DNA of 64,000 nucleotides from Cognatishimia activa (lineage in GTDB: Bacteria > Pseudomonadota > Alphaproteobacteria > Rhodobacterales > Rhodobacteraceae): NCBI RefSeq assembly GCF_017798205.1, contig NZ_CP060010.1, forward strand, positions 868,001 through 932,000. The letters run 5' to 3'. The position numbers were made by a program, and so were the translations under genes. Under the pieces are notes generated by a model. The model was not told the DNA's origin and made no database searches. It was given only the letters and a program-made list of their open reading frames with translations. Of the stretch, positions 15,157 to 63,563 are shown piece after piece; position 1 is the first letter of the stretch, and the number at the start of each line of letters is the position of its first letter.

Positions 15157-15224
15157 GTGCTCTCTCCGCATTTCCTGCGCCGCACTATGCGCGGCCATTA
15201 GGAAATGTCCACCGTTCCGGCGCA

Positions 15225-15863
15225 CTAGGTCTTTCGAGCCACAGTATAAAGCCGCTCTTGGCCTACGGGGAAATGCCCGCTTTCAACGATTTCAAATCCG
15301 GCGTCTGCAAAAGCCGCCTCAAACGCCGCGCGTGTGTGGAACGCCACAAAGGGGGCTTTGCCAAAAAACTGCATAATGGGCAGCGCGAGTTTCATCACGC
15401 GATATTCCAAATGCAGTCCAGACATGGGTTTCACAAAGGTTTTGGACACCAGAACACCGCCAGGCTTCAGCACGGCGTGCGCACGCGCCAGAACCGAAGG
15501 CAAATCTTCGACCAGATGCAGGATGTTATGCGCAAGCACCACATCAAAGGGGCCCTCAGGCATGTCTTCGGCACTGCGGACCTCAAAAGAAATGTTGCCA
15601 ACGCCGTCATTCCAAGCCCGCTCGCGGCCCACTTCAAGCATCTTTTCGGACAGGTCAGTAGCAGTGATATGAGCACACTCCCCTGCTAGCAACAAGGCCG
15701 TAGACCCGGTTCCCGCCCCAATCTCAAGCACAGCGTGATCGGCGCGCAGATAGCCGCGCGTCTTGTTCAGCGTTATCTCATAGGACTCCATATCCTTGAT
15801 CGGATCGCGCGCGTATTTCGGCGCGATCTTGTTCCAGAACTGGGCTTTATCTGCCATTGCCAT
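15225..15863 (-). CDS. Class I SAM-dependent methyltransferase
   Basis: A 212-residue methyltransferase. Motif I is HAVLEIGAGTGSTALLLAG (about residues 44-62), followed by an acidic loop (ITATDLSEKML), motif II/III (FDVVLAHNILHLV, LKPGGVLVSKTF) and a variable C-terminal substrate region. The target is unknown. Divergent from a LysR gene, which may control it. Confidence 0.88.
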   Translation of the reverse strand: MAMADKAQFWNKIAPKYARDPIKDMESYEITLNKTRGYLRADHAVLEIGAGTGSTALLLAGECAHITATDLSEKMLEVGRERAWNDGVGNISFEVRSAEDMPEGPFDVVLAHNILHLVEDLPSVLARAHAVLKPGGVLVSKTFVKPMSGLHLEYRVMKLALPIMQFFGKAPFVAFHTRAAFEAAFADAGFEIVESGHFPVGQERLYTVARKT

Positions 15864-15961
15864 ATCTCGTCACTCTCTAAAAACTCGTCTTGATCTGGAA
15901 AATACACGCAACGACTGCGAATAGAATTGCCCAATTTCGCAAGAAATATATACATAAACGC

Positions 15962-48436: not shown

Positions 48437-49375
48437 TTATCCTTTCACGGCACCGGCGGCGATACCGCGGACAAACAGTTTTCCAGAGACGAAGTAGATC
48501 ACCAGCGGCACCAGGCCCGTCAGCAAAGTCGCGGCCATATTTACGTTGTATTCTTTGACGCCCTGGACCGAATTCACGATGTTATTCAGCTGCACCGTCA
48601 TTGGATAGATTTCAGGCTTGGTGTAGATCACGCCGAACAAAAAGTCGTTCCATATGCCGGTGACCTGAAGAATGATCGCGACAACAAAGATCGGCAGCGA
48701 CATCGGCAGCATGACCTGAAAGTAGATCCGCCAGAACCCTGCCCCATCGACCCGCGCCGCTTTGAACAGCTCTTCAGGAACGGAAGCGAAGTAGTTGCGG
48801 AACAAGAGCGTCAGGATCGGCATACCAAAGATCGAATGAACAATCACAAGCCCCCCGAGCGTTCCCATCAGACGAAAGTTGGTACCTGTTGCCGCTGCGA
48901 TGACATCGCCAGTTTCACGAAGTAGGATAACGATTGGATAAATCATCACCTGATATGGGATGAAGGCTCCAAAGATCAGAATAGTGAAGAACACTTCAGA
49001 CCCTTTGAACTTCCAATTCGCTAGTGCATAACCGTTCACCGAAGCGATGATGATCGAGATAATCACCGACGGAACCATGATACGTACGGAGTTCCAGAAA
49101 CCGCGCGACAAACCTTCACAATTGATGCCGGTGCAGGCCTGTGACCAGGCTTTCACCCAAGGCTCAAATGTAACCTCCACAGGCAAGGCGAATACATTGC
49201 CCAGACGGATCTCTGGCATGCCTTTCAAAGACGTTACGATCATGACGTAGAGCGGGAGCAGATAATAAACCGAAGCCACAAACAAGGTGCTGTAGAGCAT
49301 GATGTTGGCGGGCGACAACCGCTTGCGCGGCTTTGGGCCACGTGGACCCTCGAGGCGTGTCGATGGATTAGTCAC
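48437..49375 (-). CDS. Carbohydrate ABC transporter permease (MalG type)
   Basis: A 312-residue inner-membrane permease with six membrane helices. The EAA loop is PEELFKAARVDGAGFWRIYFQVMLP-like, ending in the family's G-x-x-x-x-x-x-x-P pattern. The start GTG at 49375 was chosen as GGAGG stands in front; it overlaps the stop of the partner permease by eight bases. It pairs with the MalF-type gene at 49368. Confidence 0.93.
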   Translation of the reverse strand: MTNPSTRLEGPRGPKPRKRLSPANIMLYSTLFVASVYYLLPLYVMIVTSLKGMPEIRLGNVFALPVEVTFEPWVKAWSQACTGINCEGLSRGFWNSVRIMVPSVIISIIIASVNGYALANWKFKGSEVFFTILIFGAFIPYQVMIYPIVILLRETGDVIAAATGTNFRLMGTLGGLVIVHSIFGMPILTLLFRNYFASVPEELFKAARVDGAGFWRIYFQVMLPMSLPIFVVAIILQVTGIWNDFLFGVIYTKPEIYPMTVQLNNIVNSVQGVKEYNVNMAATLLTGLVPLVIYFVSGKLFVRGIAAGAVKG

Positions 49376-50300
49376 GACGTTTTCCTCCGAATTCCAAATA
49401 TGCCCATGGGATGAGAACAACGAGCACGCTGACGAGCATCATCGTCGAGGCTGCGAAGCCCTGACCGAGGTTCTGTGACTGGAACATTTTTTCGATAACG
49501 TATTTGGCAGGCACTTCCGAGGCGATGCCCGGCCCACCCGATGTTTGGGCCACCACAAGATCGTAAACTTTGATGATACCAGAGGCGATTAGGACCAATG
49601 CGGTCACAAAAATCGGGCGCATCATAGGAATAATCACCACCAGATAGGTCTTCCAGGTCGCGATGCCATCGACGCGCGTGGCCTTCCAGATGTCCTCATC
49701 AATGCCGCGCAGACCCGCGAGCATTATCACCATGATAAAGCCCGAGCCCTGCCAGATCCCTGCGATCAGAATGCCATAGATCACGATGTCCGGGTTGTTC
49801 AGTGGGTCAAAAGCAAACCCGCTCCACCCCAGTTTCTGCACGACAGATTGAATGCCGAACTGAGGGTTCAGGATCCACTGCCACACAAGGCCTGTTACGA
49901 TAAAACTCAGCGCGAAAGGATAGAGGAAAATTGTGCGAAATACTGCTTCCCCTCGAATTTTGCGATCCAAGAGAGCCGCCAGTGTAAAGCCGATCACAAG
50001 GCTAAGGATCATCGAACAGATCCCATAGATTGCCAAGTTCTCAATCGAAACCAACCAGCGCCGCGTGCTCCACAGACGTTCATATTGATCCAAACCCACC
50101 CATTTGTCTGGCGCGGGTAGCAAGCGAGATCGGGTGAAGGAATGATAGATCGTCCAGACCGTACAGCCGATAAAAACCACCAGAGCAGTGAACACCATAG
50201 GGATCGACGCGATCTTCGCTGTCATGTTTTTGAACATGCGATTGGGCGGCTTTCGCGAACTTCTGTCCTGTCGCACGGACGCATTCTCGGTGATCGACAT
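49368..50300 (-). CDS. Carbohydrate ABC transporter permease (MalF type)
   Basis: A 310-residue permease. An N-terminal helix (ASIPMVFTALVVFIGCTVWTI) is followed by five more, with the EAA motif at DEDIWKATRVDGIATWKTYLV. It forms the channel with the MalG-type protein and is fed by the binding protein encoded 81 bases upstream. Confidence 0.93.
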   Translation of the reverse strand: MSITENASVRQDRSSRKPPNRMFKNMTAKIASIPMVFTALVVFIGCTVWTIYHSFTRSRLLPAPDKWVGLDQYERLWSTRRWLVSIENLAIYGICSMILSLVIGFTLAALLDRKIRGEAVFRTIFLYPFALSFIVTGLVWQWILNPQFGIQSVVQKLGWSGFAFDPLNNPDIVIYGILIAGIWQGSGFIMVIMLAGLRGIDEDIWKATRVDGIATWKTYLVVIIPMMRPIFVTALVLIASGIIKVYDLVVAQTSGGPGIASEVPAKYVIEKMFQSQNLGQGFAASTMMLVSVLVVLIPWAYLEFGGKRRD

Positions 50301-50381
50301 GAAAATTACCTACGTATTGAAGCGACCACACATTGGCGGTCAGCGCGGGTTCAGCTCCGAAAAGCTGAACCCAACGGTGGA

Positions 50382-51617
50382 TTAGTCAGCGTCTGCAATG
50401 ATCGCCGCGAAACGCTCTTGGGCGTCAGCCGCGGAGTATGACGGATCATTCCAAAACTCGACCATCAGGTCTTCGATCTGACCTGAAGTGTCCGGAGACA
50501 ACGTCTGATCGCCACTTGGGAGGATGGCGCCGGAGGCCAAGATCTCGAGACCCTTCTGCATACAGTCATTCGCTGCAGACAGATCGACGTCGCCACGCAC
50601 TGGCAGCGAGCCTTTTTTCAGGTTGAAGGAAACCTGAACTTCTGGAGACAACAACAGTGCCGCCAGCTCTTTCTGAGCGGCTTCGATGTCTGCGTCGTTC
50701 TGTTTCGGGAAGTAGAACGCGTCACCGCCGGTTGAGATGATCTCATTCACACCCAAGCCTGGCAGACAGGTGTAGTCTACGCCTGCGGTCTGTTCTGCAA
50801 CGGCGAATTCACCTTGCGCCCAGTCACCCATAATCTGACCTCCTGCTTGGCCGGTAATGACGAGGTTGGTCGCTTGGTTCCAATCCTGAACGTTTGAGTT
50901 TGCAGCAAATGTCCGCGCGTTGGCGGCTGCTTCAAATACGCGTGCATAGTCCGCGCCACCGGCAACTGCAGCATCTTTGTCAACGTTGACGGCTGTCCAG
51001 GCATCAATGCCTGCGATTGCGATCGCCATCACGCCAAAGGCACCTGAGGACTGCCAAGGCTGTTGGCCCATCGCCAGTGGGATCTTGCCAGCAGCTTCAA
51101 GCGCGGGCGCTGCAGCGACAAACTCGTCCCAATTGCTTGGTACGTCGACCCCTGCGTCAGCGTAGGCTTTGTGGCTCAGCCAAATCCATTGCCAGGAGTG
51201 AATATTCACAGGCGCGCAATAAACGCGACCATCCACGGTACAACTGTCCAGCAGTGAAGACGGGTTTACGATATCTTTCCATCCCTCAGCTTCGGCAACA
51301 TCGGTGAGGTCGAGAAGCAATCCTGCTTCGATCAACTCTTCTGCCTGACGGCCATGGTTCAGCTGGGTGGCATGCATTGGGTCACCGCCGAGAATACGGC
51401 TGATGATGATTGGCCGCGCCGTACCACCAGAGCCAGCGATCGCACCATCCACCCAATTGTGCTCCGTCTTTTCGTTCAGCGCCTTAGCGAATTCAGACAC
51501 CGCAGCGGCTTCACCGCCGGACGTCCACCAATGAGTAACTTCGAGATCAGCAGCTGTCACAGCGGTCGCTGCACACAGTGCTGTTGTTCCCACCAGAATG
51601 TTCCGGATTATGTTCAT
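50382..51617 (-). CDS. Sugar ABC transporter substrate-binding protein
   Basis: A 411-residue periplasmic binding protein of cluster B (CUT1). A signal peptide is clear (NIIRNILVGTTALCAATAVTAAD), the mature start is DLEVTHWWTSGGE, and GDPMHATQLNHGRQAEELIE and WQWIWLSHKAYADAGVDVP are typical of this group. The ATG at 51617 follows GGGAGG. The ligand is unknown; the operon suggests a plant or algal glycoside. First gene after the LacI operators. Confidence 0.94.
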   Translation of the reverse strand: MNIIRNILVGTTALCAATAVTAADLEVTHWWTSGGEAAAVSEFAKALNEKTEHNWVDGAIAGSGGTARPIIISRILGGDPMHATQLNHGRQAEELIEAGLLLDLTDVAEAEGWKDIVNPSSLLDSCTVDGRVYCAPVNIHSWQWIWLSHKAYADAGVDVPSNWDEFVAAAPALEAAGKIPLAMGQQPWQSSGAFGVMAIAIAGIDAWTAVNVDKDAAVAGGADYARVFEAAANARTFAANSNVQDWNQATNLVITGQAGGQIMGDWAQGEFAVAEQTAGVDYTCLPGLGVNEIISTGGDAFYFPKQNDADIEAAQKELAALLLSPEVQVSFNLKKGSLPVRGDVDLSAANDCMQKGLEILASGAILPSGDQTLSPDTSGQIEDLMVEFWNDPSYSAADAQERFAAIIADAD

Positions 51618-51673
51618 TTTTTCCTCCCTTTTCGGACCCACGGGTCCAGCGCTCAATTTAGAGCGCAACACTT

Positions 51674-51687
51674 TGTAATCGATTACA
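51674..51687. promoter_or_regulatory. LacI-family operator, proximal copy
   Basis: TGTAATCGATTACA is a perfect palindrome with a central CG, as LacI-family regulators bind. It lies 57 bases before the binding-protein start codon. A second copy is 34 bases away. Confidence 0.85.
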
Positions 51688-51706
51688 TTGCGAAACAAAC
51701 GATTGC

Positions 51707-51722
51707 TTGTAATCGATTACAA
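51707..51722. promoter_or_regulatory. LacI-family operator, distal copy
   Basis: TTGTAATCGATTACAA is a 16-base perfect palindrome sharing its 14-base core with the first site. It lies between the two divergent transcription units and may serve cooperative binding and autoregulation. Confidence 0.85.
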
Positions 51723-51799
51723 AGATAGTCTAACTGGCAGCCCCTCTGTCAACACTATAATAATTTGATCGTGAAAATAAGTTATGAAGGCTTTGAGCA

Positions 51800-52825
51800 T
51801 TGGATAGAAAAGCGGTTACAGTACAAGACGTTGCAAGAGTTGCTGGCGTTTCAACTGCGACAGTGAGTCGAGCACTTTCAGACCCAAATAAAGTCAGTGA
51901 AGATGCCCGTACCGCTGTCAGAAACGCCATTTCAGCAACCGGATACAGACTAAATAAAGCTGCAAGAAACCTGCGAAAGCAGCAAGCAGGTGCTGTACTG
52001 ATTCTAGTGCCGAATCTCGGAAACCCATTCTTTTCGCAAATTCTTCAGGGAATCTCGGCCGTATTCTCAGAGACCGAGTTCTCGATTTTGGTATCCGACA
52101 CATCTGATCAATCGAAACGTGATCTGAATCTTGTCGACTACTTCCTCGACCGCCGGATCGATGGTTTGATTTCTCTGGATGGCGCCCTTTCGATTTCCGA
52201 ACTAGAATTGTTTAAGCATCACTCCGTCGACGACAGGATTGTATTTGCCTGTGAATGGAGCCCTCTCGTCGACTTCCCTTCGGTTCGAAGCAACAATGCT
52301 ATGGGTGCGAAGTTGGCAATCCAGCACCTATACGACCTTGGCCATCGAAAGATTGCACACATCACCGGACCAGAAGGCAACGTTCTAACGCGCGAGCGCC
52401 GCGAAGGAATGCTTCAGGCACGGCAAAAGTTGAACCTTCCAACCTGTGCAGAATGGATAATACGAGGTGATTTCTCGCTGAACTCTGGCTTTCTCGCAGC
52501 ACAAGAAATTGCAGGTATGGACGATCGTCCAACAGCCGTTTTTTGCGCCTCTGACATGGTGGCAATCGGGCTTATTTCTGGCCTAAAGCGTGAAGGTATC
52601 TCGGTACCTAACGACATTTCTGTGGTTGGCTTTGACGATATTGAAATCGCAGAGTTCTGTGATCCGCCGCTGACTACGATCAAGCAAAATCGGGTAGGAC
52701 TTGGACGCGCCGCTGCAGAGCAACTACTTGCGCAAATGGGCGCTCGCGCTGGAAAACCAGACGGAATAGTGCAGCTGGACGTTCAATTACAGACACGCGA
52801 AAGTACCGTGGCACCAGCACCATAG
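51800..52825 (+). CDS. LacI family transcriptional regulator
   Basis: A 341-residue LacI repressor: HTH (TVQDVARVAGVSTATVSRAL), hinge (YRLNKAARNLRKQQAGAV) and a periplasmic-binding-like domain (VPNLGNPFFSQILQGI, AVFCASDMVAIGLISGL, VVGFDDIEIAEFCDPPLTTI). The start appears to be TTG at 51800; an ATG at 51784 opens a seven-codon frame in another phase that overlaps it. It is divergent from the sugar ABC operon and surely its regulator. Confidence 0.93.
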   Translation: MDRKAVTVQDVARVAGVSTATVSRALSDPNKVSEDARTAVRNAISATGYRLNKAARNLRKQQAGAVLILVPNLGNPFFSQILQGISAVFSETEFSILVSDTSDQSKRDLNLVDYFLDRRIDGLISLDGALSISELELFKHHSVDDRIVFACEWSPLVDFPSVRSNNAMGAKLAIQHLYDLGHRKIAHITGPEGNVLTRERREGMLQARQKLNLPTCAEWIIRGDFSLNSGFLAAQEIAGMDDRPTAVFCASDMVAIGLISGLKREGISVPNDISVVGFDDIEIAEFCDPPLTTIKQNRVGLGRAAAEQLLAQMGARAGKPDGIVQLDVQLQTRESTVAPAP

Positions 52826-52926: not shown

Positions 52927-53571
52927 TCATTTGTCGACAGGATACTTGCGCTTGATGAGCTCGACTTGGCACTGTGTCAATAATCTTGGATTTAACCCCC
53001 TTGCCAATACCGCAAGTTTCGCGGTTTCCTCTAGCTCTTCATAGGCATAGGCCGCTTTCCGGAGGCTTCGTCCTGAAACTACCGGACCATGGTTTGCCAG
53101 AATAACCGCGGCGTGTTCGCCGTTTAGTTCTCTCACCGATTGCCCCATACCGTTATCACCTGGAAGAAAGAATGGGAGAAGCTTCACCTTGCCCAGCAAC
53201 ATGATTGCATAGGGTGTCATCGGTGGCAGCACATTGTCCGGATCAATACCAGGCAACATCGATAACAGCGTCGCGTAGGTCGAATGCAAATGCACGACTG
53301 CTTTTGCAGAAGGTCGAGTTTCGTAAAACGCCATGTGAAGAGGGATTTCCTTGGTGGGCGGATCACCATCCAACAACTCCAATGTGGGACTAAGGTGACT
53401 AATTCTGGACGGCTCCAGAGACCCCATAGAACTTCCTGAGGGCGTGATTAAGAATGAACCATCTGACAGCTTGACCGAAAGGTTTCCGGTGGACCCAGGG
53501 GTAAGTCCGCGATCGAACATAGATTTCGCAATGCGAGCAATGTCTTCGCAAGTTTGGGACAGCTCGCTCAT
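52927..53571 (-). CDS. otnC: Class II aldolase family; 3-oxo-tetronate 4-phosphate decarboxylase (OtnC-like)
   Basis: A 214-residue class II aldolase/adducin protein. Zinc-binding His residues lie in AVVHLHSTYA and VILANHGPVV, the catalytic Glu in KEIPLHMAFYE, and GSTGNLSVKLSDGSFLITPSG is the family start. OtnC turns 3-oxo-tetronate 4-phosphate into dihydroxyacetone phosphate and CO2. The upstream overlapping otnK gene supports this. Last gene of the minus-strand operon. Confidence 0.9.
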   Translation of the reverse strand: MSELSQTCEDIARIAKSMFDRGLTPGSTGNLSVKLSDGSFLITPSGSSMGSLEPSRISHLSPTLELLDGDPPTKEIPLHMAFYETRPSAKAVVHLHSTYATLLSMLPGIDPDNVLPPMTPYAIMLLGKVKLLPFFLPGDNGMGQSVRELNGEHAAVILANHGPVVSGRSLRKAAYAYEELEETAKLAVLARGLNPRLLTQCQVELIKRKYPVDK

Positions 53572-54797
53572 GCACCTTCCTCCATCAACGCTAGTGCCCT
53601 TTCGAAAAAATCGGCCGAACCAAAATTTCCAGACTTAAGCGCTAGCGCTAGAGGTCGGTTGGGCAATCGAACCACCGGAACTCCAGGTGCGATCCTTGGA
53701 CCAATAATCAGGCTCTTGGCGTCTAAGCCATTAACAACTGAACCGGAGGTTTCACCTCCCGCCACGACAATTCGCGAGACGCCACTATCCGCAAGCAATT
53801 TGGCAAGCTTGGCAAAGAGTTTTTCGATCGCTTGTGCTGCGATCTCTGTGCCAAACCGTTGTTGGGCCTCTTTCACAACTTCGGGATCTGCCGAAGAGTA
53901 AACGATGGGAACCTTTGTCTGTTCGACTGCCCAGTCTCTAATCGTCTCTGCTGACAAGACGCCGTTAATCACATCTTCGGCCAGCACTTCAAATGAAGGG
54001 TTTGATGCTTTGAAGTTTGCGACCTGTTCGCGTGTCGCTGCAGAACAACTGCCTGAAATTACGACGCCTTTTCCGATCAACGATGCCCATCGAGGTGTCG
54101 CAGGCTCCACTCCAAAATTGTGCGGCAGCCCCAAAGCAATCCCCGACCCGCCACACAGCAATACTTGTCCGTTGGCGGCATCTCCAATGGTGAATAGATC
54201 TTCATCGTGGATGGCATCGACGATGGTCATGGCTTTTGAAGACGGCAATGCCTCGCGGATGGCGATAGAGCCCCGTTTTACGACTTGTGCTGGAATATGC
54301 CTGACGTCCCAAGACGTCTGCGCGGCCAGAACACGCCTCAGGTCTGCATCTTTCATTGGTGTAAGCGGATGATCCTTCATGCCACTCTCATTGAGCAATA
54401 CATCATTGACGAAAAGATGCCCCTGATAGACGCTGCGGCCGTTTTCGGGAAATGCGGGGCATGTTAATATATGCTTGGCGTCCAGACGGTCTGCCAAGGC
54501 TTCAAGAACAGGCCCGATATTTCCTTTTGGGGTGCTGTCAAACGTAGAGCAAACCTTCAAAACGACTTGTTCAACGCCCTGTTCCAGCAACCACTCGCAA
54601 GCCGCAAGGCTATCGGCCACGGCTTCGTTGACCGGCGCTGTTCTTGATTTCAAAGCGATGACGCCAGCCTGCAACGAAGCCTCTGCGGGCTCGTTTGGGA
54701 CACCAATAAATTGAGTTACCGACATGCCAGCCTCGGCAAGAGTCAGGGCTATGTCGGATGCTCCCGTGAAATCATCTGCGATGACACCTAGTTTCAT
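53568..54797 (-). CDS. otnK: Four-carbon acid sugar kinase, 3-oxo-tetronate kinase (OtnK, DUF1537)
   Basis: A 409-residue DUF1537 kinase. The N-terminal domain starts LGVIADDFTGASDIALTLAEAG with the typical DDFTGASD; FKVCSTFDSTPKGNIG-like and CPAFPENGRSVYQGHLFV follow; the C-terminal nucleotide domain holds VVAGGETSGSVV and PRIAPGVPVVRL. DUF1537 enzymes phosphorylate four-carbon acid sugars. It overlaps otnC and the metallo-hydrolase gene by four bases each. Confidence 0.93.
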   Translation of the reverse strand: MKLGVIADDFTGASDIALTLAEAGMSVTQFIGVPNEPAEASLQAGVIALKSRTAPVNEAVADSLAACEWLLEQGVEQVVLKVCSTFDSTPKGNIGPVLEALADRLDAKHILTCPAFPENGRSVYQGHLFVNDVLLNESGMKDHPLTPMKDADLRRVLAAQTSWDVRHIPAQVVKRGSIAIREALPSSKAMTIVDAIHDEDLFTIGDAANGQVLLCGGSGIALGLPHNFGVEPATPRWASLIGKGVVISGSCSAATREQVANFKASNPSFEVLAEDVINGVLSAETIRDWAVEQTKVPIVYSSADPEVVKEAQQRFGTEIAAQAIEKLFAKLAKLLADSGVSRIVVAGGETSGSVVNGLDAKSLIIGPRIAPGVPVVRLPNRPLALALKSGNFGSADFFERALALMEEGA

Positions 54798-55603
54798 TTT
54801 GGGATCTCTGAGATTGGGCCAACGTCTAAGCGACTTATGTGATCCGCCAAACCTTTGGGAAAGATCTGTCGAACGATTGGATCATGGCCGGGAATGATAA
54901 GCTCTGGTTTAGAGGCCAACGTCTCAAGCGTCTTGAAACCATCCAGCATGTTCTTGAGGTCGACGACAATTGGGAATGGCTTTCGCGCGATGAAATTCTC
55001 GTAATAGTGAGCTGCGTCCGAGGCCAAAACCATCCAACCCGATTGCGTGCGCACGCGAACTGCCTGCAGGCCGCGCGAATGCCCCCCGATACAATGCACG
55101 GTGACACCGTCAGCAATCTGGCTGTCACCCTCATGAAACGTGAGTTTCCCGCGGTATAAGCGCGTTACGGCCTCGCACACATGGCCCGCAGTGAAAGGCG
55201 CGCGTAAATGATCGTGACACATGCATGGCCCTGTTGCGAAGGCCATTTCTTCGGACTGCATATGAAGATGCGCATTAGGAAACAGTGCCAACCCGCCTGC
55301 ATGATCATAGTGCATATGTGTCACGATGATCTCGTTGATATTCTCAGGCAAAAGCCCAAAAGGTGCCAGAGCCTCGCCCGGATCTAACCGGATCGGGCGA
55401 CCACGCAGCTTGGCTTCAGCGTGGTCATACCCCGTGTCGACCAAAATCGATCTGTTTCCATCTCGCAAAAGCCACATGAAGTAGTCCATTGCGTGGGGCG
55501 CATCATGATTGTCGTCAAAGATAAAGCTGTCCGCGCGGGTACGCTCATTTCTGTCCGCGTATTTAATCGCGTGAACTTCCCAAATTCCAGTGGCACCACT
55601 CAT
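54794..55603 (-). CDS. MBL-fold metallo-hydrolase, possible lactonase
   Basis: A 269-residue metallo-beta-lactamase-fold protein of the AHL-lactonase-like group. Metal ligands: HMHYDHAGG, His in CIGGHSRGLQ, Asp in VLASDAAHYY and His in IIPGHDPIV. In an acid-sugar operon the most natural task is opening a sugar lactone, but thioester or ester hydrolysis is possible. It overlaps the genes on both sides by four bases. Confidence 0.88.
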   Translation of the reverse strand: MSGATGIWEVHAIKYADRNERTRADSFIFDDNHDAPHAMDYFMWLLRDGNRSILVDTGYDHAEAKLRGRPIRLDPGEALAPFGLLPENINEIIVTHMHYDHAGGLALFPNAHLHMQSEEMAFATGPCMCHDHLRAPFTAGHVCEAVTRLYRGKLTFHEGDSQIADGVTVHCIGGHSRGLQAVRVRTQSGWMVLASDAAHYYENFIARKPFPIVVDLKNMLDGFKTLETLASKPELIIPGHDPIVRQIFPKGLADHISRLDVGPISEIPK

Positions 55604-55881
55604 CTGTAGACCTCGCTAAACAACCGAACGTGTTTATCCAAAACCATATCCGCAATTTGGGCGTCGAACGTCAAAAAGTGGTCAGACGCAAGATGGACGT
55701 CAAAGGCAGCGCGGTCATCGTAGACTTCGTAGAGGACGATATCTTGAGCATCTCGACAGATCTCGAAAACATGGCATCCCGGCTCCGCATTCAGCGACTG
55801 CGCAGCATTCGCCTTCATGAGAGGTAAGAAATCCTTCATCCGCCCTTCTTTGATGGCAAAGGTGACGAGTACTACGAACAC
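55600..55881 (-). CDS. Antibiotic biosynthesis monooxygenase (ABM/YgiN) domain protein
   Basis: A 93-residue dimeric ferredoxin-fold protein with the ABM pattern VVLVTFAIKEGRMKDFLPLM, GCHVFEICRD, VLYEVYDDRAAFDVHLASDHF. Members include quinol monooxygenases and sugar-binding RhaM-like mutarotases. It overlaps the metallo-hydrolase by four bases and directly abuts tctA, so it belongs to the operon; the role is unclear. Confidence 0.87.
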   Translation of the reverse strand: MFVVLVTFAIKEGRMKDFLPLMKANAAQSLNAEPGCHVFEICRDAQDIVLYEVYDDRAAFDVHLASDHFLTFDAQIADMVLDKHVRLFSEVYR

Positions 55882-57393
55882 TTAAACTTCCTTTCCACGC
55901 AACCGGGCAAACCCGCGTTTCAACATCGGAATCTGCGCTGCAATCAGAGCGATATTCAAAGCTAAGAGGACTGCGGCACCTGGTCGAGACACAAAAAGAC
56001 CCAGACTTCCATCCGACAGGAACAGCGACCGGCGGAAGGTTTCATCAAAAAGCCCCCCCAGAATAACCCCGATGACGAGCGGTGCGATCGGATATTTCAT
56101 CATGTTCATAAAGTAGGCCACAAAGCCAACGCCGAGCATGAGGTAAAGGTCGTTGATACCGCCGCCCACGCTAAACGATCCGATGGCCGTCAAAACCATC
56201 ACTATCGGCAGGAAAACAGTCTGTGGTATTCGCAGAATCTTGATAAAGAACTTCGCCGTAAACAGGCCCAGAACAAACATCGTAAAGGACGCCAAAACCA
56301 TGATCGCAACGACACGCAGAATGATCTCTGGGTCGATTGTCGGACCAGGAATAACGTTGTTGATTTTAAACGCCCCCATGAGGGCTGCTGCAGGCGGTGA
56401 TCCGGGAATGCCTAAGACCAACAATGGGATCAGCGCACCACCAATGCAGGCGTTGTTCGCAGTTTCCGAGGACAAAAGGCCTTCCAATGAACCTTTACCG
56501 AACTTGTCCCCTTCTTTGGAAACTGTTTTCCCGACTCCGTAGGAAACCCAACCTGCCACGTCTTCTCCGACGCCGGGCAACGCTCCCACACCTGTGCCAA
56601 TAACTCCTGAACGCGAAATTGTCGGCATGTATCGGCGCACTGCGGCCAGATTTGGCAATATGCGCCCCTGCAATGCAACCATCTGCCCAACGTTCATGTG
56701 GCGCAGGCCGTCTATAATCTGAGGCACGGCAAATGCGCCCATCAAAACAGGTACGACCTGAAAGCCTGACAGCATGTAAGACCAGCCAAATGTGTAGCGA
56801 GGCTCCGATAGGAGTGGGTCCAGCCCGACCATCGCCATTGCGAGTCCAATCAGCCCAGATATCCAGCCCTTGATGACCAGATCTTCGCTCATCAAGGTAC
56901 CTGACAAAAGGATTCCAAACAGCGCAAGAAGCGCCTTTTCAGGGCTGGCGATGTTCTGTGAAAGCAAAAGCAGCACCCATACAAAGATCAGGAGAGCGAC
57001 AGTCCCAATCAACGTCCCAATAAAACTTGCTGTCGTCGTGAGGCCCAGCGCTTCGCCACCTCTTCCGGCCTTCGCCAAAGGATGTCCGTCCATTGCCGTC
57101 GCCGCGCTGGCCGCAGTGCCGGGAATATTGAGCAGAATGGATGGATATGACCCCCCATAAATTGCACCTACATAGGCCCCCAAAAGCGCGATAAGCGAGT
57201 AATCCAACGGGATTTTGTTGCCGAAAAACCCTGTCAAAATGGTAACGGCCAGCGTTGCAGTGAGCCCGGGAAGCGCACCGAATGTGATGCCCAGAAAGAC
57301 TGAGATAATCAGATAGGCATAGGTTAATGGGTCGACGACCAGAGCGACAAAAGCGGCTCCAAATCCAGCCAATTGCAAGAAAATGAAGTCCAT
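55882..57393 (-). CDS. tctA: Tripartite tricarboxylate transporter, large permease TctA
   Basis: A 503-residue TctA with about 12 membrane helices. The family motif FGALPGLTATLAVTIL is present near residue 40, as are IYGGSYPSILLNIPGTAASAAT and the repeat VIGTGVGALPGVGEDVAGW and LIPLLVLGIPGSPPAAALMG. It moves carboxylates with TctB and the periplasmic TctC. The adjacent genes suggest an acid sugar as cargo. Confidence 0.95.
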   Translation of the reverse strand: MDFIFLQLAGFGAAFVALVVDPLTYAYLIISVFLGITFGALPGLTATLAVTILTGFFGNKIPLDYSLIALLGAYVGAIYGGSYPSILLNIPGTAASAATAMDGHPLAKAGRGGEALGLTTTASFIGTLIGTVALLIFVWVLLLLSQNIASPEKALLALFGILLSGTLMSEDLVIKGWISGLIGLAMAMVGLDPLLSEPRYTFGWSYMLSGFQVVPVLMGAFAVPQIIDGLRHMNVGQMVALQGRILPNLAAVRRYMPTISRSGVIGTGVGALPGVGEDVAGWVSYGVGKTVSKEGDKFGKGSLEGLLSSETANNACIGGALIPLLVLGIPGSPPAAALMGAFKINNVIPGPTIDPEIILRVVAIMVLASFTMFVLGLFTAKFFIKILRIPQTVFLPIVMVLTAIGSFSVGGGINDLYLMLGVGFVAYFMNMMKYPIAPLVIGVILGGLFDETFRRSLFLSDGSLGLFVSRPGAAVLLALNIALIAAQIPMLKRGFARLRGKEV

Positions 57394-57394
57394 T

Positions 57395-58165
57395 CTAGCG
57401 GCTCCAGAGCGGTTTGATGTTCACGAAGTAATGATACTCAATTTGACTGAAGAGCAGTCCTGAACGGTTCGGGACATTCTGACGAAACCCAAACGCCATG
57501 GCCAAAACCAGGAGTGTTGGTGCCAGTATCGCAATGATCGGAATTGCACGCGCCACACGATCTTGGCGGTTTGTAGCAAGGACCCACAGAGTCAGTCCAA
57601 ACCAGAGCACCAGCGCCACCCAATCGTCGTCATGGGCTTTCCATTCCGATCGCGGAAGATGCGCTGCAAGGGCATATAATCCTGCAATCGCGACGATCAG
57701 CGTCACCAGGATCATACGATCAGATCGACCTCCATGATAGCCATAGATAAGGCCCGTAATCAGCAATCCCGACCCGATGATGAAGTCGACCCGTGGCACC
57801 AAGCCAACGATGTAGAAAAACAGAATGAGCGCGAGCGTGCTAAATCGCAAAGCTTCGCTGCGATTCCAGCCTATCCCAACCCGTGTCAGAGCGAGCCTAG
57901 CCCCGCCCGCCTTTATTGAAATGTTCATGAGAACAAGCGACAGAACAAGCAGTGCTCCAAAGATGCCAAAAGGCACGAGGGCTGCAGAATTGTACCAATC
58001 AGCACCGCTTACTCCTGCGCGGTTTTGCCCGAACAGGGGGATGAAAGACGTGCGCCAAAGGAAAAATACAGACAGGAAAAACAGGACGATTGCGCCCCAA
58101 AAGTCCCTTGCGCGAAGGATTTCCTGTTCGGTGGGAGAGTTCAATTTTGCCTCCAGTGCAACCAT
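57395..58165 (-). CDS. tctB: Tripartite tricarboxylate transporter, small permease TctB
   Basis: A 256-residue membrane protein, long for TctB, with seven or so hydrophobic segments, among them FWGAIVLFFLSVFFLWRTSF and FSTLALILFFYIVGLVPRVDF. The ATG at 58165 was chosen; a TTG frame from 58204 would add 13 residues. It stands one base before tctA and 54 bases after tctC. Confidence 0.88.
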   Translation of the reverse strand: MVALEAKLNSPTEQEILRARDFWGAIVLFFLSVFFLWRTSFIPLFGQNRAGVSGADWYNSAALVPFGIFGALLVLSLVLMNISIKAGGARLALTRVGIGWNRSEALRFSTLALILFFYIVGLVPRVDFIIGSGLLITGLIYGYHGGRSDRMILVTLIVAIAGLYALAAHLPRSEWKAHDDDWVALVLWFGLTLWVLATNRQDRVARAIPIIAILAPTLLVLAMAFGFRQNVPNRSGLLFSQIEYHYFVNIKPLWSR

Positions 58166-58219
58166 GTTCGGGCAAGTGAAAGGCGCGCCTGGCGACGCGC
58201 CCAACTTGAGTTGATTGTT

Positions 58220-59227
58220 TTAAGGTTTCTCGATGCCAAGCGACGCGGGATCGACGGTCGTCGCGCCAAGGTCTTTCAGCGTGTAAGCAAATGTGCTTTC
58301 CAGTGTCGCGAACAGCGCCTGCGCTTCTTCGCCGTACTGGCCGCCAACATCATAGTTATTCGCGACAGCCCACTCGGCAACGACGTCAGACGCAATCGCC
58401 TTTTCAAAAGCATCGCCCAATTTCGCCTTCACATCATCAGACGCCGAATTGTGCACGGCAAAGCCGATGGCTTGCTTGAGTGGCAGGTATTTGTCCAACC
58501 CGTCATAGATGTCAAAGGCCGAAGGAACACTCATGCCTGCGATCTCGACGGACTCTGGTGTCAGCATTGCCAGCGGTTTAAGTTTCCCGCCTTCAATCAA
58601 AGCGGCCTGTTCTGCCAAAGAGGTCACAACCAATGCGACTTCACCTGCAATCGCGGCTTCTTGGCCCGGAGCAGACCCTTTGTAAGGTACGAATTTGAAT
58701 GTGGCATTTGCACCATTCTCGATCGCCAAAAGGTTCAGGTGATGGATAGAGCCAGCGCCTGAAGCTGCTGCCGGAATAGTACTAGGCGCAGCTTTGGCTG
58801 CATCAACCAGCTCTTGCAATGTGTTGTAAGGGCTGTTCGCAGGCACAGAAATCAGGTCTGGCGAACCTCCGACGATAAACGGATACCAGTAGTCAAATTT
58901 CTGGTCCCAGCCGCCTTGTACAGCAGCCGTCACGTTGGATTCCGAAAGACCGACCAAAGTGTAGCCATCGTCCGCTTGGTTTTGCACATAGACCATGCCG
59001 TTGGATCCGGCGACACCACCAGTTTGGTTGATAACGTTGATCGACACAGGAAGGTGTTTTTCCATCTCGGCCATGATCATGCGATTGATGGAGTCTGTGC
59101 CTCCACCTGCGCCCCACACAACCGCTGTGGTGATATCGCGGAATGGATATTCTTGGGCCAAGGCACCGCCTGCCAGCCCTGTCACGAGCGCGGCTGCACC
59201 CGCAATTTTTGCAATGTTGAGTTTCAT
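58220..59227 (-). CDS. tctC: Tripartite tricarboxylate transporter, substrate-binding protein TctC
   Basis: A 335-residue periplasmic binding protein of the Bug/TctC family with signal peptide (LNIAKIAGAAALVTGLAGGALAQ) and the typical motifs YPFRDITTAVVWGAGGGTD, VINQTGGVAGSNGMVYVQ and GSIHHLNLLAIENGANATFKFVPYKGSAP in outline. The ligand is probably a carboxylate. First gene of the minus-strand operon; the start ATG at 59227 follows GGAGGACG. Confidence 0.94.
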   Translation of the reverse strand: MKLNIAKIAGAAALVTGLAGGALAQEYPFRDITTAVVWGAGGGTDSINRMIMAEMEKHLPVSINVINQTGGVAGSNGMVYVQNQADDGYTLVGLSESNVTAAVQGGWDQKFDYWYPFIVGGSPDLISVPANSPYNTLQELVDAAKAAPSTIPAAASGAGSIHHLNLLAIENGANATFKFVPYKGSAPGQEAAIAGEVALVVTSLAEQAALIEGGKLKPLAMLTPESVEIAGMSVPSAFDIYDGLDKYLPLKQAIGFAVHNSASDDVKAKLGDAFEKAIASDVVAEWAVANNYDVGGQYGEEAQALFATLESTFAYTLKDLGATTVDPASLGIEKP

Positions 59228-59249
59228 TTGATGTCGTCCTCCCAGACTC

Positions 59250-59269
59250 AATGCGTTTATTGTTGCATT
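59250..59269. promoter_or_regulatory. Inverted AATGC/GCATT site in the divergent region
   Basis: AATGC (59250-59254) and GCATT (59265-59269) face each other across ten bases, close to the tctC start. The same half-sites recur at 59281-59294. Confidence 0.5.
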
Positions 59270-59280
59270 CATTTGCGTAT

Positions 59281-59294
59281 GCATTAATTAATGC
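59281..59294. promoter_or_regulatory. Palindromic operator in the tctC-dehydrogenase region
   Basis: GCATTAATTAATGC is a perfect 14-base palindrome in the 137-base gap between tctC and the dehydrogenase gene. The GntR regulator encoded at 61484 is the natural candidate to bind it. Confidence 0.65.
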
Positions 59295-59364
59295 GTTGTC
59301 AAATTTTTTTGCGCAATCTCGTGCAAAATGCCAAAGTTAAGAAGTCAGAAGGGGAACAGTGTCT

Positions 59365-60462
59365 ATGAGTAAGACATTTGAAATCGCGGTATTCGCAGGC
59401 GACGGTATTGGCCCGGAAATCACTGATCCTACAGTGAAAATCCTTCGTGCAATGTCAGATGCGTCCAATGAATACAGCTTGAACTTTCAAGACTTACCCG
59501 CTGGCGCAGCACATTACGCAGCAACCGGAGAATCGCTTCCAAAAGACTCTATGGACGCAGCTCGCCAGGCGGATGCGATTCTACTTTCCGCAATGGGTTT
59601 GCCAGATGTGCGCTATGCGGACGGAACGGAAATCTCGCCACAGATCGACCTTAGAAAGGAACTGACGCTGTTTGCTGGCGTCAGACCAGTTACCGTTCGC
59701 GAGGGACAGCGTGGACCACTCTCCCTTCCTAAAGGCAAAGAGATCGACTTTGTCCTCATTCGCGAAAGCACAGAGGGCCTTTTTTATTCGCAGGGCTGTG
59801 GCGAAATTACTAACGACGAAGCCCGGGAAACACTTCTGATCACGCGCGACATTTCGGAGAAATTATTCAAATTCGCCTTCGAACTTGCGGGCAATCGAAA
59901 GAAGGCAGGTCGCGGACCGGGACGCGTAACCTGTGTGGACAAAGCCAATGTCTTTCGCGCGTTTGCTTTTTTCCGAGAGTTGTTTGATCAGGAAGCCCTC
60001 CGCAACCCCGACTTAGTTGCCGACCATGCTTATGTTGACGCAACTGCGCTTTGGATGGTTCAGAAACCATGGGACTTTGACGTTCTCGTAACAGAAAACA
60101 TGTTTGGTGACATTCTATCAGATCTTGGAGCGGGGCTAATGGGCGGCCTTGGGCTCGCTCCTTCCGCTGACATCGGGTTGGAGCATGCGGTCTTCCAACC
60201 CTGCCATGGATCGGCGCCTGATATCGCCGGTCACGGCCTAGCGAATCCTTTCGCCATGATTTTGTCGGCCGCGATGATGTTGGATTGGCTAGGGATCAAA
60301 CATAGCAATGAGGCTCTAGTTGCAGACGGCAATCGTCTTCGCGAGGCTGTCGAGCGCGTTGTCGCGAGGGGCAAAACATTGACGCGAGATCTGGGCGGTA
60401 CGTCTGGAACTGACGATGCCGCTGCGGCGGTCCAAGCCCTTGTTGCGATGGAAACCGTATGA
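59365..60462 (+). CDS. Isopropylmalate/isocitrate/tartrate dehydrogenase family protein
   Basis: A 365-residue beta-hydroxyacid oxidative decarboxylase. Motifs: IAVFAGDGIGPEITDP, the substrate arginines in FVLIRESTEGLFYSQG, TCVDKANVFRAFA (Lys), VTENMFGDILSDLGAGLMGG (Asp) and PCHGSAPDIAGHGLANPFA. It is unlikely to be the LeuB of leucine synthesis because the neighbours are all catabolic; a tartrate-dehydrogenase-like role fits better. ATG at 59365 was chosen; GTG at 59359 is an alternative. It overlaps the next gene by four bases. Confidence 0.9.
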   Translation: MSKTFEIAVFAGDGIGPEITDPTVKILRAMSDASNEYSLNFQDLPAGAAHYAATGESLPKDSMDAARQADAILLSAMGLPDVRYADGTEISPQIDLRKELTLFAGVRPVTVREGQRGPLSLPKGKEIDFVLIRESTEGLFYSQGCGEITNDEARETLLITRDISEKLFKFAFELAGNRKKAGRGPGRVTCVDKANVFRAFAFFRELFDQEALRNPDLVADHAYVDATALWMVQKPWDFDVLVTENMFGDILSDLGAGLMGGLGLAPSADIGLEHAVFQPCHGSAPDIAGHGLANPFAMILSAAMMLDWLGIKHSNEALVADGNRLREAVERVVARGKTLTRDLGGTSGTDDAAAAVQALVAMETV

Positions 60463-61478
60463 CACAGAGTATCAAAGTCGCGTGCGTCGGAGCAGGTTAC
60501 TTTAGCAAGTTTCACTACGAAAGTTGGGCGCGTATGGACGATGTCCAAGTCGTCGGCTCATGCAACTGCGATATCAGCAAAGCACAGGCGACGGGATATG
60601 CCGCCTATGACGACCTTTCAAAAATGCTGTCGGACACCAACCCAGACTTGCTGGATGTTATTTTACCCCCTGTTGCACATGCTCAGACGATAAAAACGGC
60701 CATTGCACAGGGCGTTAAAACGATCATCTGCCAAAAGCCGTTCTGTCAGGATATCCAAGAAGCCAAAAGCATGATCGCGTTGGCAGACGAGGCGGGAACA
60801 AGGATTGTTGTCCACGAAAACTTTCGGTTTCAACCTTGGTATCGTCAGATCAAAAATGCACTAAGCGAAAATGCGATTGGCGAGGTTCAACAACTCACAT
60901 TCAGACTGCGGCCGGGTGACGGACAAGGCATGGATGCTTACCTGGATCGGCAACCATATTTTCGCGAGATGAAGAGATTCTTGATCCATGAAACTGCGGT
61001 CCATTGGGTCGACACGTTTCGTTTTCTTTTGGGTGAACCAACCGCCGTTTACGCAGACTTGCGCAAGGTGAACCCAGTCATTGCCGGCGAGGATGCCGGC
61101 TATGTGATTTTTGATCACCCTAATGGCGTGCGCGCCATATTCGACGGCAATCGCAACCTGGATCATGCCGCTGACAATCTCCGCCGCACGATGGGTGAAG
61201 CGTTGATTGAGGGCTCTAAGGGCTCTCTTGTTTTACGCGGTGATGGGTCAATCTCGCTACGAAAATTCGCGCAAACGGAAGAAGCAGAAATTTCAGCAGC
61301 TGACACTTGGGACGGCTTTGGCGGCGACTGCGTACATCACTTGCAGAGCCATGTGATTTCTGGCCTAATCCACGGATCGGACATAGAAAACGAAGCTAAA
61401 GACTATATTCGTGTCATCGAAATAGAAAACGCGATCTATAGTTCCGCCGAGACAGGGCAAAAAACAGCATTGGACTAA
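60459..61478 (+). CDS. Gfo/Idh/MocA family oxidoreductase
   Basis: A 339-residue NAD(P)-dependent dehydrogenase: start IKVACVGAGYFSKFHYESWARM, catalytic Lys in CQKPFCQDIQEAK, C-terminal domain with FLIHETAVHWVDTFRFLLG. It is the third member of this family in the island but stands in the acid-sugar block. It may oxidise a sugar to its lactone, which the MBL hydrolase would open. Coupled by ATGA to the dehydrogenase upstream. Confidence 0.9.
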   Translation: MTQSIKVACVGAGYFSKFHYESWARMDDVQVVGSCNCDISKAQATGYAAYDDLSKMLSDTNPDLLDVILPPVAHAQTIKTAIAQGVKTIICQKPFCQDIQEAKSMIALADEAGTRIVVHENFRFQPWYRQIKNALSENAIGEVQQLTFRLRPGDGQGMDAYLDRQPYFREMKRFLIHETAVHWVDTFRFLLGEPTAVYADLRKVNPVIAGEDAGYVIFDHPNGVRAIFDGNRNLDHAADNLRRTMGEALIEGSKGSLVLRGDGSISLRKFAQTEEAEISAADTWDGFGGDCVHHLQSHVISGLIHGSDIENEAKDYIRVIEIENAIYSSAETGQKTALD

Positions 61479-61483
61479 ACTTG

Positions 61484-62158
61484 GTGCAACCATCGGGCAA
61501 ACAACTTTCAACGACCCAGCGCGCGGTTCATTTGCTTCGCGAAATGATTTTTCGGGGTGACTTGGCGGCAGGCTCTGATCACCTTGAAAGTGAACTGGCC
61601 GTGCGTCTTGAAATGTCCCGCACCCCAATTCGCGAGGCTGCGTTGACTCTGGAAAGCCAAGGCTTGTTGGAATTGAGGCCTCGCAAAGGCGTTCGAATTT
61701 TGCCGGTTTCGCCAGATGACATGGAAGAGATTTATGACGTTCTCACAGAGCTCGAGTGTTTGGCAGCACGCCGTGCAGCGGAAGCTAACTATTCTCAGCC
61801 CGACTTGAAAGCACTCGCCGCGGCTATTGAAAATATGGAGCTTGCCCTCGAGAGTAACGACCTTGAGAACTGGGCGAAATCCGATGACTTGTTCCACAGA
61901 GAGCTTGTCAGGCTCGGGCAAAACTCGCGCGCTTTCTCGGTGTTTGAAATGATGAATGACCAGGTACGCCGTGCGCGATCAGTTACGCTGTTTATGCGCC
62001 CCCTGCCCGTTCAATCTAACGAGGATCACAGGCAACTGTATGAAGCGATTGCGAATGGAGACGCGACAAGAGCTGTCGAAATTCACCGTGACCACAGACA
62101 AAACGCGAAACATATGATGTTGGATTTGTTAAGCAAACATCGCCTGAACAGCGTCTGA
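61484..62158 (+). CDS. GntR family regulator, FCD domain
   Basis: A 224-residue FadR-subfamily GntR protein: winged HTH (AVHLLREMIFRGDLAAGSDH, LEMSRTPIREAALTLESQGLL) and an all-helical FCD domain (DDLFHRELVRLGQNSRAFSVF, DHRQLYEAIANGDATRAVEIH). It probably senses a carboxylate made or imported by this locus. The GTG at 61484 or the adjoining TTG at 61481 starts it, right after the oxidoreductase stop. Confidence 0.92.
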   Translation: MQPSGKQLSTTQRAVHLLREMIFRGDLAAGSDHLESELAVRLEMSRTPIREAALTLESQGLLELRPRKGVRILPVSPDDMEEIYDVLTELECLAARRAAEANYSQPDLKALAAAIENMELALESNDLENWAKSDDLFHRELVRLGQNSRAFSVFEMMNDQVRRARSVTLFMRPLPVQSNEDHRQLYEAIANGDATRAVEIHRDHRQNAKHMMLDLLSKHRLNSV

Positions 62159-62397: not shown

Positions 62398-63249
62398 TTA
62401 GTGCATCGTTGGCCTCTGATCCATCTGTATGATGGTTTCCGGCGCCTGTGGTCTGTAACCCAATGCGCTGTGGGGCCTCTTCGTGTTGTAGTGCTTCCTC
62501 CATTCTTCGATCAGTATTTGAGCTTCACGCAGGCTGTAGAATACCTCGCCATTGAGAAGTTCATCTAGCATCCGCCCGTTGAAGCTTTCACAGTATCCAT
62601 TTTCCCAAGGTGATCCCGGTTCAATGTAAGCTGTCTTTGTGCCTACGGCAGTTATCCAATTCCTAACGGCCTTTGCGACGAACTCTGGGCCATTGTCGGA
62701 ACGTATGAATGCTGGTGGTCCACGCAGGATGAACAGATCCGTCAGGGCGTCGATGACATCTGCAGAGTTCAATTTGCGCTGCACCTTGATAGCCAAGCAT
62801 TCACGGCTGTGCTCATCAAGAATGTGCAGCGTGCGAAAGACCTTGCCATCATCTGTCCGGCAATGAACGAAGTCATAGGACCAGACATGGTTACGGTATT
62901 CCGGCCGCAGCCTTACGCATGAGCCGTTATTCAGCCAGAGCCGACCCTTCTTTGGTTGTTTAGCTGGAACCTTAAGCCCCTCTCGTCGCCATAGTCGTTC
63001 AACACGACCATCGCTGACTGACCAACCGGCTTCTCTTAACAAAGCGGCAATCCGACGATACCCGTATCGACCAAACTGACGAGCCAGCTCAATCATATCC
63101 GCAACCAGTCTGTATTCATCTGGGCGACCTCGGGGAACATGCCTTTGTGTCAAACGATGTTGTCCCAGTACGCGGCATGCTCAGCGCTCAGAGACCTTGA
63201 ACTGGCTGCGCACGTGATCAATGCAGGCCCGGCGACGAGCGGGGCTCAG
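62398..63249 (-). pseudogene. IS3-family transposase OrfB, broken by a nonsense codon
   Basis: The integrase core is intact: the three DDE positions lie in WSYDFVHC, RSDNGPEFV and NGYCESFNG, and the C-terminus YNTKRPHSALGYRP is typical. Upstream, the frame reads PARRRACIDHVRSQFKVSER, then TGA (63181-63183) where relatives continue SERRACRVLGQHR; the frame resumes ACRVLGQHRLTQRHVP. Only a fragment from a TTG at 63153 could be made without readthrough. Confidence 0.85.
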
Positions 63250-63563
63250 AAGTTTCCCCGTGCAGCTTCCTTCAGGATCAATTTGTCCAACGTCAAATCC
63301 GATACGGCTCTTCTGAGCCGCTCATTTTCCTTCTGAAGCCGCTTCAGTTCTTTCAATTGATCTACGCCCATTCCACCCGTCGCCATTGTCGCTCGGACCA
63401 ATGGCGCTCTCAATGGCTCCATTCTTTCGCCAGCGGTAATAGGTTGTTCAACAACACCGATCTGTCTGATCGCATCAAGACGAGACATGCCTTGCCCCAT
63501 AAACACCTCAACTTGCCGTAACTTCGAAACTATCTCTTCTGGCTTCGGTCTCTTGTTTGCCAT
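63246..63563 (-). pseudogene. IS3-family OrfA with scrambled HTH region
   Basis: A 105-residue frame. The ends match IS3 OrfA (KRPKPEEIVSKLRQVEVFMGQGMS; LKELKRLQKENERLRRAVSDLTLDKLILKEAARGNF in outline). The middle does not: after GVVEQ the usual TYYRWRK is found in another frame, implying a lost base followed by about 40 extra bases that restore the frame. The product would lack its recognition helix. Confidence 0.75.

Follow-up and report, generated by a model that had tools for sequence, protein, structure and literature searches.

The ten-gene locus at positions 52,927 to 62,158 of the 64,000-nucleotide stretch of Cognatishimia activa DNA analyzed here (the window; contig NZ_CP060010.1, positions 868,001 to 932,000) is genuine and represents a variant of tetronate catabolism that recurs in other genomes. 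It combines a 3-oxo-tetronate kinase (OtnK) and a 3-oxo-tetronate 4-phosphate decarboxylase (OtnC) with a LeuB-like dehydrogenase of the Iso_dh family, a small ABM-fold protein, a Gfo/Idh/MocA dehydrogenase, a metallo-beta-lactamase (MBL)-fold hydrolase, a tripartite tricarboxylate-type transporter (TctABC) and a GntR regulator. Our reading, which we hold to be evenly balanced between right and wrong, is that the locus serves to break down a four-carbon sugar, or the lactone of such a sugar, by a non-phosphorylating oxidative pathway in which the LeuB-like enzyme and the ABM protein replace the dehydrogenase LtnD and the isomerase OtnI. A first-pass annotation of the same DNA had listed these genes, and we confirm their order and the four-base overlaps that it reported among the otnK, otnC, MBL and ABM genes. 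Its interpretation is partly supported, in that the LeuB-like gene does stand where LtnD and OtnI stand elsewhere, but the ABM protein, which is probably half of the replacement, had been given no role.

Using OtnK as the anchor, we surveyed two genome samples, both drawn evenly: one of 385 genomes of the class, where matches at 1e-60 or better marked 51 sites, the window's among them, in 49 genomes, and one of 398 genomes of the phylum, 81 of which had OtnK matches at the same threshold. Sites already obtained with the class sample were left out of the phylum set, one fetched stretch (L152) holds two adjacent OtnK sites, and with the window's own site left out the two samples gave 49 + 87 = 136 OtnK neighbourhoods, in which presence or absence of a gene rests on profiles and score cut-offs that we set ourselves. 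The LeuB-like clade is found in 10 of these 136 neighbourhoods, and 9 of the 10 contain ABM, 9 the Gfo/Idh/MocA clade and 9 a lactonase (MBL in 5, SMP-30 in 4), compared with 0 of 126 for each of the three where the LeuB-like gene is missing. Conversely, OtnI is present in 0 of the 10 versus 83 of the 126, and LtnD in 0 of the 10 versus 65 of the 126. The gene set exceeds chance, by Fisher tests that treat loci as independent, and recurs as a module, so that the search across genomes suggested by the first-pass annotation did find the LeuB-like, ABM, Gfo/Idh/MocA and lactonase genes together at OtnK loci, and bore out its pairing of the Gfo/Idh/MocA enzyme with the lactonase. The 10 module loci span 7 families, with two of them (L243 and L246) coming from two species of one genus and having near-equal scores. 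Two genomes (G734 and G736) contain three OtnK operons each, one with OtnI and LtnD, one with OtnI and no LtnD, and one with the LeuB-like module; since both carry two OtnI-type operons elsewhere, the module probably has a substrate of its own and probably does not just duplicate the established pathway. As a separate observation, 38 of the 126 neighbourhoods lacking the LeuB-like gene (among L118-L166 and L171-L257) also show no OtnI or LtnD match, and several of these have in common unannotated neighbours such as a gene of 608 amino acids (L119/L120) and one of 530 amino acids (L123/L124/L128); further tetronate pathway variants are likely to exist.

A search with the LeuB-like protein itself separated, among its best 80 loci, 52 (L003-L054) at 44% identity or more from a remainder at 41% or less. 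Around these 52 loci we count at least 13 OtnK, 12 OtnC, 20 ABM, 22 Gfo/Idh/MocA, 24 GntR, 10 MBL, 14 SMP-30 lactonase, 8 TctA and 9 TRAP genes, all being minimum values because many loci lie on short contigs. Sulfitobacter mediterraneus M342 (L261) contains the complete module, its importer being of the TRAP type, and Marinovum algicola DG 898 contains the module without OtnK or OtnC being annotated in its vicinity. The Gfo/Idh/MocA enzyme and the lactonase are replaced in two Rhizobium loci (L023 and L024) by a HAD hydrolase and an aldehyde dehydrogenase, as assigned by Pfam on the L023 proteins. A search of plasmids identified 17 records with the LeuB-like gene, and four of these neighbourhoods were inspected. 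The one from Paracoccus seriniphilus (L263) showed an aldehyde dehydrogenase and no OtnK, ABM or Gfo/Idh/MocA gene, and the module on a plasmid of Rhizobium phaseoli R744 (L262) has an importer annotated as a sugar ABC system. The L262 module adjoins a divergent set encoding triose-phosphate isomerase, an aldolase, a bisphosphatase, transketolase and an RpiB-like protein that passes the D-erythrulose-4-phosphate isomerase model (257 versus a cut-off of 240), a neighbourhood that would place the module in a C4 context and is consistent with the four-carbon reading.

Both OtnK and OtnC of the locus pass the NCBIfam equivalog models for their families (scores in the table), and the window genome, a single contig of 3.25 Mb that is 99.4% complete, contains one OtnK and one OtnC above the cut-off, the latter at this locus. 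A tree of 65 OtnK proteins, with 23 of its 62 inner branches not resolved, includes 19 module kinases, the window's among them. Their distribution requires 7 label changes, no fewer than 6 of which are forced by well-supported branches, and on this tree the module kinases appear scattered and not as one clade. In the simplest reading of this scatter, ordinary 3-oxo-tetronate kinases acquired the upstream module several times, from which it would follow that the usual substrate of OtnK, 3-oxo-tetronate, is probably what the module delivers. The locus kinase scores 115 bits with the 3-oxo-isoapionate kinase (OiaK) model, which has a cut-off of 700. A D-threonate route through DtnK and PdxA2 was considered and rejected, OtnK reaching 146 bits against a D-threonate kinase cut-off of 450. 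In two other modules, a class II aldolase fills the OtnC position (L044, 6401-7066; L154, 10281-10952), scoring 214 and 212 bits as fuculose-phosphate aldolase and 83 and 73 bits with the OtnC model (cut-off 250).

Neither OtnI nor LtnD is present in the locus, as the first-pass annotation had stated, and OtnI was not found in the window genome as a whole, where an E. coli YgbM query gave no match at an E value of 1e-3 and a five-row OtnI profile none at 1e-10; the same profile did find matches in control genomes, four in number, of which G131 and G335 had supplied profile rows. For LtnD, the only matches of an E. coli YgbJ query in the window genome show 25-31% identity and lie well away from the locus. 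The NCBIfam scan, which covered nine of the ten locus proteins, gave no match to D-erythronate dehydrogenase (NF043036) among these nine, the rest of the genome not having been searched with that model.

Alignment of the LeuB-like enzyme demonstrated that it retains the three Arg, the Lys, the Asn and the three Asp of its family, and that the position of the catalytic Tyr is Phe in 49 of 52 rows (Phe142 in the window protein). These 52 rows are the window and 51 loci, with L050 having failed the identity and coverage filter. The three rows without Phe (L046, L049 and L052) fall outside the 49-row clade, whose support is 99/97, and lack its Pro at window residue 94, and all 28 lower-identity Iso_dh loci of the same search, together with E. 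coli LeuB and DmlA, contain Tyr as controls. The Phe142 site presumably corresponds to Tyr139 of the Thermus isopropylmalate dehydrogenase; in this enzyme and in isocitrate dehydrogenase, the Tyr helps both in decarboxylation and in protonation. Excerpts of a study of human IDH1 place its Tyr139 in the substrate site, but prefer a lysine as the principal proton shuttle there (PMC12200840). We infer that loss of the catalytic Tyr would fit a non-decarboxylating enzyme, i.e., a dehydrogenase that stops at the 3-oxo-acid and leaves decarboxylation to OtnC. A second pairing of Iso_dh with OtnK occurs in L156 (5227-10890), where an OtnK-OtnC cluster contains a different, Tyr-containing Iso_dh enzyme together with a malate/L-lactate dehydrogenase family enzyme (Ldh_2), a GST-like gene and a HAD gene.

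The ABM protein appears to be LsrG-like beyond the generic likeness of ABM proteins, since a profile of the module members (trimmed to 96 residues, which excludes the methylglyoxal-synthase-like half of a fused protein in L051) scored 60 bits with E. coli LsrG versus 24 with YgiN. The YExY and His residues are common to ABM and LsrG, and most module members keep the FD of LsrG, with the window protein having Glu for Asp. Quinol monooxygenase was rejected as an identity for ABM, the profile being closer to LsrG than to YgiN. In L051 ABM is fused to a methylglyoxal-synthase-like domain, and in L044 and L154 a gene for such a domain follows ABM; MgsA uses dihydroxyacetone phosphate (DHAP) as its substrate, and these domains therefore lend support to DHAP as the product. 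In the window genome the domain is found only inside two long open frames elsewhere. An ABM in L158 and a second one in L154 were rejected because the matches are to the methylglyoxal-synthase-like domain. Small methylglyoxal-synthase-like genes also lie by OtnC-OtnK in L158 (7930-8316) and L231 (near 7899), two loci from genomes of one family, where no LeuB-like gene is present.

The MBL hydrolase occupies the exact place of SMP-30/gluconolactonase in relatives (a name that rests on a Pfam scan of five members), and the two were never found together, neither in the 52 LeuB-centred loci nor in the 136 OtnK loci. Of 22 LeuB-like loci with the Gfo/Idh/MocA gene, 9 contain MBL, 11 SMP-30 and 2 neither. 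Because of this swap, the MBL hydrolase is likely a sugar lactonase, in agreement with the lactone-opening role first proposed for it. N-acyl homoserine lactonase was tried and rejected, with the best such model reaching 72 bits against a cut-off of 375. The best PDB match of the Gfo/Idh/MocA enzyme is 5uhw (123 bits, the next best 60), which is titled 'Oxidoreductase protein' and which we take to be a sugar dehydrogenase, D-apiose dehydrogenase.

From these assignments we infer the substrate, the order of the steps, the position oxidized and the role of ABM. TctABC would import an acid or a lactone, and GntR would control both arms of the locus. The Gfo/Idh/MocA enzyme would oxidize an aldotetrofuranose to the tetrono-1,4-lactone, which the MBL hydrolase, in a step that is well supported, would open to the tetronate. 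The Phe-type LeuB-like dehydrogenase would then oxidize the tetronate, most likely at C3, and release the 3-oxo-acid undecarboxylated, and the LsrG-like ABM protein, as a carbonyl-shift isomerase or a C2-epimerase, would convert this oxo-acid to the form taken by the kinase. By family assignment, OtnK would give 3-oxo-tetronate 4-phosphate, and OtnC would decarboxylate it to DHAP. A bolder proposal, which is possible and which we put forward only tentatively, is that this is a widespread and complete pathway from aldotetroses (erythrose/threose) to DHAP with two new activities, a LeuB-fold non-decarboxylating tetronate dehydrogenase and a tetronate-specific LsrG-like isomerase.

Several observations weigh against this pathway. 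In each of the 10 other module genomes searched, the OtnI profile identified a gene of the OtnI/Hyi family that lies outside the module, with at least one of those in G654, G734 and G736 standing at another OtnK operon. Of ten of the remaining genes, eight were classified (L271 and L273 were left out), and 5 of the 8 pass the NCBIfam OtnI model, which does not separate OtnI from hydroxypyruvate isomerase; one that passes (L265) adjoins glyoxylate carboligase and is for this reason probably a hydroxypyruvate isomerase. An otnI gene beyond the locus, which the first-pass annotation had named as a refutation if always present, is thus not always present, none having been found in the window genome, the only one for which OtnI is shown to be dispensable. 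In addition, 39 of the 52 LeuB-like loci have no OtnK on the fetched stretch (many being short contigs), so that the LeuB-like clade may serve other pathways too; we know of no activity for any enzyme of this clade, and all three Arg, which in the Iso_dh family bind the dicarboxylate, are kept in it. Two of the ten module loci are exceptions, L218 lacking ABM and OtnC, and L214 lacking the Gfo/Idh/MocA gene, the lactonase and OtnC. On the tree of LeuB-like proteins the presence of ABM has to change 11 times, i.e., ABM comes and goes within the clade, and a single-sequence PDB search with ABM, in which two of 12 matches are LsrG, placed the uncharacterized Rv0793 first by 0.1 bit and LsrG second. 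Finally, Tct and TRAP transporters usually carry acids and not neutral sugars, and the Gfo/Idh/MocA step may therefore not be the first.

The same pathway could run with the LeuB-like enzyme oxidizing C2 and ABM making the shift from 2-oxo to 3-oxo, a one-for-one replacement of LtnD and OtnI that we consider unlikely but well worth entertaining. LsrG is annotated as the isomerase of a phosphorylated dione, which suits such a role for an LsrG-like protein, and in L023, L024, L033 and L045 the ABM gene directly follows the LeuB-like gene, so that ABM probably acts on its product. An LtnD-like gene (15110-16258; 418 bits with our own LtnD profile) lies between ABM and OtnK in L034, a locus with OtnC and no OtnI match, which would fit a shift made by ABM; this is a single locus, however, and one that also carries a LeuB-like gene, and the chemistry of the Iso_dh family oxidizes the carbon beta to the carboxylate, which is C3 of a tetronate. 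It is distinctly unlikely, in our view, that the imported compound is instead a tetronate or its lactone (e.g., from ascorbate breakdown), with the Gfo/Idh/MocA enzyme not acting first and interconverting or oxidizing another stereoisomer. The usual preference of Tct and TRAP systems for acids argues for this, as does the finding that transporter type varies among relatives while the lactonase and dehydrogenases stay, but the Rhizobium aldehyde dehydrogenase in place of the Gfo/Idh/MocA enzyme and lactonase, the sugar-type ABC importer and the presumed sugar-dehydrogenase identity of 5uhw suggest a substrate at the aldehyde level.

As an alternative, the first-pass annotation had offered an acid sugar that is branched or has five carbons. 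We considered this as an apiose-like compound or a 2-C-methyl tetrose handled by OtnK/OtnC paralogues, and our analysis makes it improbable. The presumed D-apiose dehydrogenase identity of 5uhw would favour it; against it stand the low OiaK score of the locus kinase, the failure of the module kinases to form a clade of their own, the fact that C3 of apionate is a tertiary alcohol that a dehydrogenase cannot oxidize, and a PF00016 search for a RuBisCO-like protein, which found no match in the window genome and matched in 5 of 14 controls. The apionate/apiose route is thus disfavoured by both kinase score and gene content. We regard it as very improbable that the substrate of the LeuB-like enzyme is a dicarboxylate resembling tartrate or malate, with common regulation as the enzyme's only tie to the tetronate branch: the three Arg, the Lys and the three Asp of the dicarboxylate site are kept and the clade also occurs without OtnK nearby, but Phe stands at the Tyr position and the LeuB-like gene is strictly coupled to ABM, Gfo/Idh/MocA and lactonase genes at OtnK loci.

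The locus consists of seven genes on the minus strand and three divergent genes on the plus strand, with four-base overlaps at otnC/otnK, otnK/MBL, MBL/ABM and LeuB-like/Gfo, and with the ABM and tctA genes abutting without a gap. A Pfam scan gave no match for tctB.

Genes of the tetronate locus in the window
Feature	Coordinates	Strand	Basis
otnC, 3-oxo-tetronate 4-phosphate decarboxylase	52927..53571	-	NCBIfam NF043034, 276 bits (cut-off 250); Aldolase_II (PF00596)
otnK, 3-oxo-tetronate kinase (DUF1537)	53568..54797	-	NCBIfam NF043035, 529 bits (cut-off 350); Pfam SBD_N and NBD_C
MBL-fold hydrolase, putative sugar-acid lactonase	54794..55603	-	Pfam Lactamase_B; swap with SMP-30 lactonase in relatives
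ABM-fold small protein, putative LsrG-like isomerase/epimerase of an oxo-acid	55600..55881 (GTG start)	-	PF03992
tctA, large membrane part of tripartite tricarboxylate-type transporter	55882..57393	-	PF01970
tctB, small membrane part	57395..58204	-	Position; 25-59% aligned to small subunit of relatives
tctC, periplasmic binding protein	58220..59284	-	PF03401; TctC/Bug relatives in PDB
LeuB-like (Iso_dh) dehydrogenase, distinct clade, Phe142 for catalytic Tyr	59359..60462	+	PF00180, 292 bits
Gfo/Idh/MocA dehydrogenase, putative aldose 1-dehydrogenase	60459..61478	+	PF01408; best PDB match 5uhw
GntR/FCD regulator	61481..62158	+	PF00392 and PF07729; recurs with module

The region between tctC and the LeuB-like gene (59285-59358) contains TTGTCAA followed by TTGCGCAA. 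Of 16 upstream regions inspected, 6 (the window and 5 of 15 relatives) have TTGTCAA between -56 and -71, a possible GntR site but too weak a pattern for us to claim an operator, and promoter and terminator scans gave nothing outside what shuffled sequences give. Immediately past the GntR gene lies an IS3-type-like element of two open reading frames (62398-63563, minus strand), the larger with rve and HTH_21 domains and the smaller with no Pfam match. At the otnC end the locus is bordered at 49368-52825 by sugar ABC transporter genes (SBP_bac_1 and permease) and a divergent LacI regulator, apparently a separate regulon.

If our reading is correct, it gives a function to a LeuB-fold clade annotated as 'isocitrate/isopropylmalate family dehydrogenase', and also to the ABM and MBL proteins, whose labels 'putative quinol monooxygenase' and 'N-acyl homoserine lactonase family protein' are probably wrong. 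The excerpted text of a 2025 study that isolated tetrose-using bacteria states that microbial tetrose pathways remain to be elucidated (PMC12780249), and the module is a concrete and testable oxidative candidate for tetrose use. In the openly licensed literature we found no paper with a proven pathway for this gene set; close homologues with such a pathway were what the first-pass annotation had named as grounds for abandoning its proposal.

One of the closest known systems is the four-step L-threonate route LtnD-OtnI-OtnK-OtnC (E. coli ygbJKLM; Zhang et al. 2016, as described in excerpts of PMC12540250). The OtnK and OtnC of the locus pass the same equivalog models as those of this route and DHAP would again be expected, but LeuB-like, ABM, Gfo/Idh/MocA and lactonase genes are found in place of LtnD and OtnI. 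The three-step L-threonate bypass (Guo et al. 2024, as described in the same excerpts of PMC12540250) resembles the locus in needing no OtnI, and differs in keeping LtnD and in using an F_bP_aldolase-type 2-OtnC, whereas OtnC of the locus belongs to Aldolase_II and no LtnD is present. An engineered route, in the excerpted account, converts D-threose via D-threono-1,4-lactone to D-threonate (PMC10079672). These would be the same first two chemical steps as proposed for the locus, but the synthetic route, by that account, continues with a dehydratase. The oxidative D-apiose/apionate pathway, which Carter and colleagues reportedly described in 2018, is said to use a Gfo/Idh/MocA dehydrogenase, a lactonase and a DUF1537 kinase. 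The locus shares all three, but its kinase is far below the OiaK cut-off, unlike that of the apionate pathway with its OiaK and RuBisCO-like OiaX/OiaT enzymes. E. coli LsrG, which acts in autoinducer-2 (AI-2) breakdown, has the ABM fold, YExY and His in common with the window protein, and differs in its substrate, a phosphorylated C5 dione, and in the Asp of its FD. The beta-decarboxylating dehydrogenases (LeuB, isocitrate dehydrogenase and tartrate dehydrogenase) share with the LeuB-like enzyme their fold and their metal- and substrate-binding residues, and are set apart from it by the change of the catalytic Tyr to Phe.

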